From: a virus | Strand: one strand, 5' to 3' | IMG/VR virus record: IMGVR_UViG_3300042336_000180 | Coordinates: 1-24,604 of that record | Length of the DNA stretch: 24,604 nucleotides | Shown here: piece after piece, positions 5,069-21,663 of the stretch | Layout: the number at the start of each line of letters is the position of its first letter | Numbering within the stretch: position 1 is the stretch's first letter | Made by a program: the position numbers and the translations under genes | Notes under the pieces: model-generated | Told to the model about the DNA's origin: nothing | Database searches by the model: none | Seen by the model: only the letters and a program-made list of their open reading frames with translations

Positions 5069-5173
5069 GATAACCTCGGGGCGACCGGGAGCCCGGTGAG
5101 CGCGTTTCTCCTCCTTGCGCGCAATGAGTCTGTGGTGGCGCACAGATCGCCCCCCCCCTCTTCCAAGGCAACG
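5069..5173 (+). promoter_or_regulatory. Structured 105-base leader before the nuclease gene
   Basis: This gap is unusually long for the operon. It contains a perfect hairpin ACCGGG-AG-CCCGGT (5084-5097), a second hairpin TCTGTG-6-CACAGA (5129-5146) and a run of nine C (5150-5158). The first hairpin would mask a possible in-frame GTG start at 5096; translation from there would pass through the C run. There is no U tract, so a simple terminator is unlikely. A role in translational control is possible but unproven. Confidence 0.4.
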
Positions 5174-20156: not shown

Positions 20157-20184
20157 TTTCTGCGTCTCCTGTGTCTGGTTTTGA

Positions 20185-20349
20185 TCACTTCTTCTTGTCG
20201 TAGACCGACCACGCCACGCCGACCAGCGTTGCGGCAGCGCCCACGACGACGTTGATGGTCTCGCCGTCGAGACCCCAGGCGGCGAAGAACCCGCCGCCGA
20301 CAGCGGTCAGGATGTGGCGGGTAAGTGCTGCGATAACGGTTGCATTCAT
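20185..20349 (-). CDS. Pam3-gp28-like putative holin
   Basis: This encodes 54 residues from ATG 20349 preceded by a strong GGAGGTG. It has two short hydrophobic segments, ILTAVGGGFFAAWGL and INVVVGAAATLVGVAWSVY, separated by DGET and ending DKKK. The layout 'R..LT..GG......D......GA...L.GVAWS..DKKK' matches the putative holins of the Pam3-gp28 type. It would open the inner membrane to release the endolysin. It is the last gene of the lysis cassette. Its ribosome site lies inside the decayed endolysin-end copy just upstream. Confidence 0.7.
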   Translation of the reverse strand: MNATVIAALTRHILTAVGGGFFAAWGLDGETINVVVGAAATLVGVAWSVYDKKK

Positions 20350-20351
20350 GG

Positions 20352-20421
20352 TCACACCTCCATCAGAGAAGAAATACGCCGCGCCCCCCCCCCGGCCGAA
20401 GATCGGCCAGCTTTGACGGCG
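20352..20421 (-). pseudogene. Decayed duplicate of the endolysin gene 3' end
   Basis: The plus-strand text from 20361 to about 20409 is a diverged repeat of 20976-21023 in the endolysin gene: 20 of 25 bases match on one side and 15 of 16 on the other, around a C run one base longer. Read on the minus strand with one G removed from the G10 run (20384-20393), it gives SWPIFGRGG then ARRISSLMEV and a stop. The real endolysin end has TWPSFGRGW then ARRIASLM. As it stands the frame is broken and has no start. Its final codons (ATGGAGGTGTGA) contain the Shine-Dalgarno of the downstream holin. Confidence 0.7.
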
Positions 20422-20430
20422 TGAGGTGCA

Positions 20431-20967
20431 TCAGCTAGCCGCGCCCTTGACGCCGCTCGCAGTGGCCTGAATCGCGGCGTTCTTTCCCCACTGGCGCAGG
20501 CCGGCGTAGGCCAGCGGCAGCGTCATCAGCAGGCCCAGTATCTCGACGCCAGGGTCATCCTGCGTGAACACATAGGCGATCGCTGCGAACAGCGCGACCC
20601 AGCTCTGGCCAGGTCGGGTTCTGCGCACGAATGGATCCTCGACCGCGTCACCCGCTCGAATCGTGGTCTGGGTCTGTTCATGCTCGGCTTGCTGGTCCTT
20701 GAGCTCGAGCTCAGTCATCGCGCGGATATGCTCGCGGATGCTCGCATCGTTCTGCAGCGCGAGCTCGCGCAGGCGCACAAGCGTGGCCGGGTCTTCCTGC
20801 AACCGGGATAGCGCGGCATCCGGCGTTGCCACACCAGTGGCGCTGCCGACCAAGGCCACGCCGGCGGCCACCGCACCAGGCACGTTGCCGGTCAGCAGCG
20901 AGCCTACAAGCGCCGCGCCAGCGCCCGCGTTGTCTTGAATCCACTCACCGACATCAGACCATTTCAT
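20431..20967 (-). CDS. 3TM-type holin family protein
   Basis: This encodes 178 residues from ATG 20967 in an ATGA overlap with the endolysin stop. It has one hydrophobic segment near residues 27-47 (VPGAVAAGVALVGSATGVA), a charged helical middle (ELELKDQQAEHEQTQ), the motif DPFVRRTRPG (111-120), and two further membrane segments (QSWVALFAAIAYVF and VEILGLLMTLPLAYAGL). The RTRP motif before a pair of membrane helices is typical of GTA-type 3TM holins. It would permeabilise the inner membrane. It lies between the intact endolysin and the decayed copy of its end, so it may be a late arrival in the cassette. Confidence 0.7.
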   Translation of the reverse strand: MKWSDVGEWIQDNAGAGAALVGSLLTGNVPGAVAAGVALVGSATGVATPDAALSRLQEDPATLVRLRELALQNDASIREHIRAMTELELKDQQAEHEQTQTTIRAGDAVEDPFVRRTRPGQSWVALFAAIAYVFTQDDPGVEILGLLMTLPLAYAGLRQWGKNAAIQATASGVKGAAS

Positions 20968-21443
20968 GCGGCCCCCATCAAGGATGCAATGCGCCGCGCC
21001 CAGCCTCGGCCGAAGCTCGGCCAAGTCGACAGCGACGTCATGAAGTTGAGCCGCTGGGCCAGCATCCGGCGCAGCAGCGCCTCGGGATCTTGGGCCTGCG
21101 CGCCGGCGAGCGTGCGCGGCCCCAGTACGCCATCATCCGACACGTCTAGCGCGCGCTGGAGCCATCGCACGGCCTGGCGCACGCCGGAGTTCACCGCTGC
21201 GTCAAACACGGCGTAGCGCACGCCTGCGGGCAGCTCGTCGGCACGCACGGCGTCCCAGTAAGCCGCCCGGTAGATCAGCCGCGCGGCGTCGAGCGGCAGC
21301 TCGCGCATGTCGCCGCGGTAGCCGTGCGCCCGCGCGACGACCTCGGTGATGCCGTAGCGGGTCTTTCCGCCCGGATCGGCCGCGTGGTCGGAGAAGCCGC
21401 CCTCGTGGCGCAGCAACTCGTCGAAGGCCTGGTCGAAGTTCAT
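20964..21443 (-). CDS. Endolysin, glycoside hydrolase 108-type muramidase
   Basis: This encodes 159 residues from ATG 21443, which shares a base with the upstream stop; ATG 21470 would add 9 residues and overlap that gene. The catalytic front is FDELLRHEGGFSDHAADPGG with Glu14, followed by KTRYGIT, the hallmark of GH108 N-acetylmuramidases. The C-terminal half (AVFDAAVNSGVRQAVRWLQR, then DDGVLGPRTL) is the usual peptidoglycan-binding helix set of this family. There is no signal peptide, so export needs a holin, two of which follow. It cuts the cell-wall glycan at lysis. Confidence 0.85.
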   Translation of the reverse strand: MNFDQAFDELLRHEGGFSDHAADPGGKTRYGITEVVARAHGYRGDMRELPLDAARLIYRAAYWDAVRADELPAGVRYAVFDAAVNSGVRQAVRWLQRALDVSDDGVLGPRTLAGAQAQDPEALLRRMLAQRLNFMTSLSTWPSFGRGWARRIASLMGAA

Positions 21444-21649
21444 CAGCTTGGGGCCTTGCCCGACAGCCACATTGCGATTGCCACGCCCAGCACGCCCAAC
21501 GCCCAGGTGAACTTGTGCAGCAGGCCTCGGCCGACCTCGCGGTACATGTTGTCCATGACTCGTTTCGCGGCCTTCTCAGCGATCTTGTCCATGATTTCCT
21601 CGGTCAGCGGCTGGTGCAGCCGTCGCTCGTCGCCCTCGTATTTGTCCAC
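21443..21649 (-). CDS. 68-residue single-pass membrane protein of the lysis cassette
   Basis: This starts at GTG 21649 behind a strong AGGAGG. The N-terminal half is charged and helical (DERRLHQPLTEEIMDKIAEK, AAKRVMDNMYREVGRGL). One membrane segment follows (FTWALGVLGVAIAMWLSG) with a 5-residue end. Similar 'ERR..PLTEE.M..IAE.AA..' proteins are familiar beside phage endolysins. It could be a holin partner or an antiholin, but it lacks recognised holin or spanin features. Its stop overlaps the endolysin ATG. Confidence 0.65.
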   Translation of the reverse strand: MDKYEGDERRLHQPLTEEIMDKIAEKAAKRVMDNMYREVGRGLLHKFTWALGVLGVAIAMWLSGKAPS

Positions 21650-21663
21650 GTTGCCTCCTTAGA

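Follow-up and report, generated by a model that had tools for sequence, protein, structure and literature searches.

A decayed endolysin 3' end, probably left by recombination, lies between two holin-type genes in a phage lysis cassette

The lysis cassette of the viral sequence analyzed here (the window: all 24,604 nucleotides of IMG/VR record IMGVR_UViG_3300042336_000180) carries, directly before its last holin gene, a further copy of an endolysin 3' end, now decayed. This scar is very probably an endolysin end that once stood immediately in front of a gp28-type holin and was left behind when recombination joined two lysis arrangements. It is homologous to endolysin 3' ends, both parental arrangements occur in other phages, and the Shine-Dalgarno sequence of the last holin is intact within it; the present order may have arisen in a single event. 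The features that bear on this reading are as follows.

21443..21649, minus strand: first gene of the cassette; its 68-residue product has a single predicted transmembrane stretch (hydropathy)
20964..21434, minus strand: GH108 endolysin gene, 156 residues, C-terminal end WPSFGRGWARRIASLMGAA (Pfam PF05838, PF09374; phrog_315 endolysin)
20972..21034, minus strand: intact copy of the repeated stretch, within the endolysin 3' end (local alignment)
20431..20967, minus strand: gene for a 178-residue membrane protein, a putative holin (phrog_1544, weak GTA_holin_3TM, hydropathy)
20347..20410, minus strand: the scar, a decayed second endolysin 3' end with stop codon and next start codon (alignments with endolysin loci L007 and L006, shuffle test, unique among 88 loci)
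20384..20393, minus strand: G10 run (C10 on the plus strand), the longest homopolymer of the window (run list)
20357..20361, minus strand: GGAGG, the holin Shine-Dalgarno, within what were the Glu-Val codons of the scar (sequence)
20185..20349, minus strand: 54-residue holin gene, Pam3 gp28 family (Pfam PF23987, Phage_holin_10, 2.6e-13)

On the minus strand, the lysis genes run from the 68-residue membrane protein through the GH108 endolysin and the 178-residue membrane protein to the 54-residue holin, which follows after an 81-base gap. The endolysin (3.8e-27 against PF05838) and the Phage_holin_10 member both agree with the names given in an earlier sequence-only reading. The endolysin gene is taken here from 21434, the listed open reading frame from 21470 having an upstream GTG start; its viral relatives reach 84% identity, and the closest endolysins to it are those of L006 and L007 (83-84% protein identity). 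Pfam match and alignment place the last gene in the Pam3 gp28 family (50.2 bits, gathering score 27; residues 4-54 on 2-52 of 52, thus full length), and it is a predicted holin, for which the annotated phage collection gave no match and a holin-alignment scan of bacterial and archaeal genomes confirmed no relative. Comparison with Pfam and PHROG gave no family match for the 68-residue protein. The 178-residue gene and the endolysin gene share four bases (ATGA) at the start of the former and the stop of the latter. Its former label as a 3TM holin survives as a weak resemblance to GTA_holin_3TM (PF11351; 16.9 bits, E 0.0096), below the Pfam cut-off (gathering score 24.8), and it is its position and hydropathy that suggest a putative holin. 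The stop of this gene, the scar, and the ATG of the last holin share one frame (20349-20433; 27 codons, no other stop), so that a ribosome reading through a single TGA would make a fusion of both holin-type proteins.

The proposal that the intergenic piece repeats the endolysin 3' end (20361-20409 against 20976-21023) is borne out at nearly the length first given. Minus-strand 20357-20421 aligns with 20972-21034 at 49 of 65 identical columns and a local score of 31. When the intergenic piece was dinucleotide-shuffled 3000 times, scores averaged 12.5 and never exceeded 25; elsewhere in the window, counting both strands, the highest-scoring unrelated site reached 17. Alignment against related endolysins, the check that had been called for, gives a better match than the window's own endolysin: over 20347-20410, L007 is identical at 52 of 64 columns and L006 at 51 of 64, the highest agreement among the endolysin loci tested. 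Both matches take in the stop codon and the ATG of the following gene, and the usual junction is therefore kept. Over the whole scar, L007 scores 39, L006 scores 37, and the active copy of the window scores 31, because the end of the active copy is itself unusual (Met-Gly-Ala-Ala-stop and not Met-Glu-X-stop). Farther upstream than the TGG near 20410, in the direction of the membrane-protein stop, the similarity is not significant (p 0.06-0.97 by relative), and the scar is therefore about 60 bases long. In a comparison of 88 endolysin loci, only the window has another endolysin end downstream of its endolysin gene (31), the 87 others scoring at most 19. The exact text of the scar has no match in IMG/VR.

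The features of a gene remnant are combined in this stretch, namely similarity to a gene, truncation with a broken frame, and an intact counterpart in the predicted order in relatives, where that order (endolysin then gp28 holin) is found with endolysins other than the closest type. The reading frame of the scar is shifted by the G10 run, which is present in the record; past the run, as the sequence-only reading had noted, the scar reads ARRISSLMEV-stop, followed by CC and the holin ATG. A C9 run at 5150-5158 is the second longest homopolymer of the window. The identification of the scar as an endolysin 3' end is supported both by its alignments with the closest endolysins and by the shuffle test.

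The two arrangements that would have been joined can be recognized separately among other phages. A related GH108 endolysin followed by a gp28-family holin after a gap of 1-7 bases occurs in 11 IMG/VR contigs (L013, L016, L022, L031, L033, L035, L041, L104, L105, L144, and L174), 80 gp28 holin relatives having been fetched, and the predicted ancestral order thus exists. The other arrangement is present in L087, where the endolysin precedes a counterpart of the 178-residue gene with 86% identity; a further gene comes next, and the locus lacks both the scar and a gp28 holin. Its DNA is 77% identical over 21443-20451, spanning both genes. L089 and L090 also have the endolysin and membrane-protein pair without a gp28 holin. 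None of the gp28-holin loci examined contains the 178-residue gene, and no locus from the gp28 scan has both holin types. The exact ancestral pair that had been predicted, an endolysin ending in ARRISSLMEV before the 54-residue holin, was looked for and not found in any relative. The endolysins directly before gp28 holins have ends that match the scar at a score of at most 21, below L006 and L007, which themselves precede other genes. Very similar ends are found in L337-L339 (DLMEV or CDLMEV, TGA, N, CATGAA), with the junction text CTGATGGAGGTGTGA-N-CATGAA intact in L337, but there they stand before a different, 133-residue gene. In L019, and probably near-identical L096-L101, an intact 86-residue gene occupies the 264-base gap that separates endolysin and gp28 holin, which is another way for a gene to come between the two.

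GGAGG lies 7 bases upstream of the holin ATG at 20349, within codons of the former endolysin end, and a Shine-Dalgarno core in the last four endolysin codons is common in the family when another gene is adjacent: of the distinct tails next to another gene, 38 of 59 have one, as against 1 of 12 tails lacking such a neighbour (Fisher p 0.0007, relatedness ignored). The suggestion that the old codons were kept because they contain this site therefore stands as far as its location is concerned, and it may be that the scar was retained for this purpose. A link between the last codons of an endolysin and the ribosome site of the next gene would explain the retention of such ends. Because these codons carry that site, it could further be speculated, with more doubt than confidence, that endolysin 3' ends in the GH108 family studied here form a recurrent joining point for holin exchange, the scar being a captured intermediate kept as a portable ribosome site.

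Recombination between two lysis arrangements could have proceeded as follows. A unit of endolysin and 178-residue membrane-protein gene would have been joined about 60 bases before the stop of a second endolysin end, either through a single illegitimate crossover between two phages whose lysis cassettes differed or through insertion of the membrane-protein gene together with an endolysin-end repeat. The resulting cassette would have contained a single working endolysin and two holin-type genes, with a useless endolysin end separating the latter. This end may afterwards have decayed by substitutions and a change in length of the G run, while presumably still supplying the ribosome-binding site of the last holin. 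In the earlier account of this history, the scar as an endolysin end and the separate existence of both arrangements (11 contigs; L087) hold, and the direction and order of events that it gives may be otherwise. In that account the active endolysin end is the newcomer, having arrived with the 3TM holin; up to the ATG of '...SLMG', however, that end is nearer to L007 (34 of 39 alignable sites) than to the donor-like L087 (31 of 39), and sliding identity along the active endolysin shows no clear point at which L006/L007-like sequence gives way to L087-like sequence, so that its arrival with the membrane-protein gene is not directly supported.

Within the recombination reading, it is possible, though not probable, that the scar arose locally, the endolysin's own 3' end having been copied at the insertion of the membrane-protein gene and the duplicate having then decayed. 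Scar and active end agree at 33 of the 39 sites, slightly above the 32 of 39 between scar and L006/L007, and both have a Ser codon where L006, L007, and L009 have Ala. Against this, the scar ends in Met-Glu-X-stop-ATG, the junction usual in the family and different from that of the active copy, and over its whole length it fits L007 and L006 better. From the near-tie of 33 and 32 sites, an endolysin end from a second phage and a duplicate of the phage's own end are indistinguishable.

A similarly tentative version reverses the order, with the endolysin and the 178-residue gene resident and a foreign endolysin end plus gp28 holin added downstream. The pair without gp28 holin in L087 and in L089/L090 is consistent with this, as is the observation that gp28 holins also stand behind several unrelated lysis genes; on the other hand, no relative was found in which the 59-residue gene immediately follows the resident pair. 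The closest head-gene relatives, L175 and L177 (59-residue gene 93%, major capsid 96%), favour neither order, the cassette being missing from this place in both. Since the lysis genes are absent from that site, the flanking genes do not reveal the order of events. In L175 and L177, the 113-residue and 59-residue genes are about 18 bases apart, and the 1.5-kb cassette (20157-21656) is absent. The whole cassette therefore varies from one relative to another. In BUCT555, a cultivated Stenotrophomonas phage (major capsid 71%), the annotated endolysin is likewise found at another site, after the capsid genes.

It is improbable that the stretch is instead a functional short gene or leader, in which a 22-codon open reading frame (20431-20363) could couple translation by starting in the membrane-protein stop (TGATG) and ending just before the holin Shine-Dalgarno. 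Overlaps of the TGATG type and short open frames arise often in GC-rich DNA, and no relative has the stretch. Chance similarity or an assembly artefact is least probable of all: the scar is short and GC-rich (0.66), includes the G10 run, and is known from one metagenome-assembled record, but none of the 3000 shuffles reached a score of 31, and the match has the place, direction, and register that biology would lead one to expect, immediately in front of the holin.

Phage mosaicism is usually inferred by whole-gene comparison, and a leftover gene end marks a recombination joint to within tens of bases. The scar also shows that a lysis cassette can gain a second holin by joining beside the old endolysin-holin junction. 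Among the titles and abstracts listed in literature searches, none describes this scar.

The scar documents ordinary mosaicism of phage lysis cassettes in an unusually legible form and is a neat case, not a new mechanism. Among lactococcal phages, recombination swaps lysis genes, once as an entire holin-endolysin block (PMC9371310). The same kind of swapping between phages is proposed for the window, which in addition keeps a short readable piece of the old junction, a kind of remnant undescribed in the part of that report considered here. Gordonia phage cassettes likewise combine several different membrane-protein genes directly after the endolysin, none of them duplicated (PMC9671378), although these are other phages with apparently other holin types, and, unlike the window, the cassettes covered by that part of the work have no endolysin fragment between holin genes. 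In most of the relatives examined, a holin of the Pam3 gp28 family stands immediately behind an endolysin, or else behind an endopeptidase-like or spanin/holin-like gene, whereas in the window the scar and another putative holin intervene after the endolysin.
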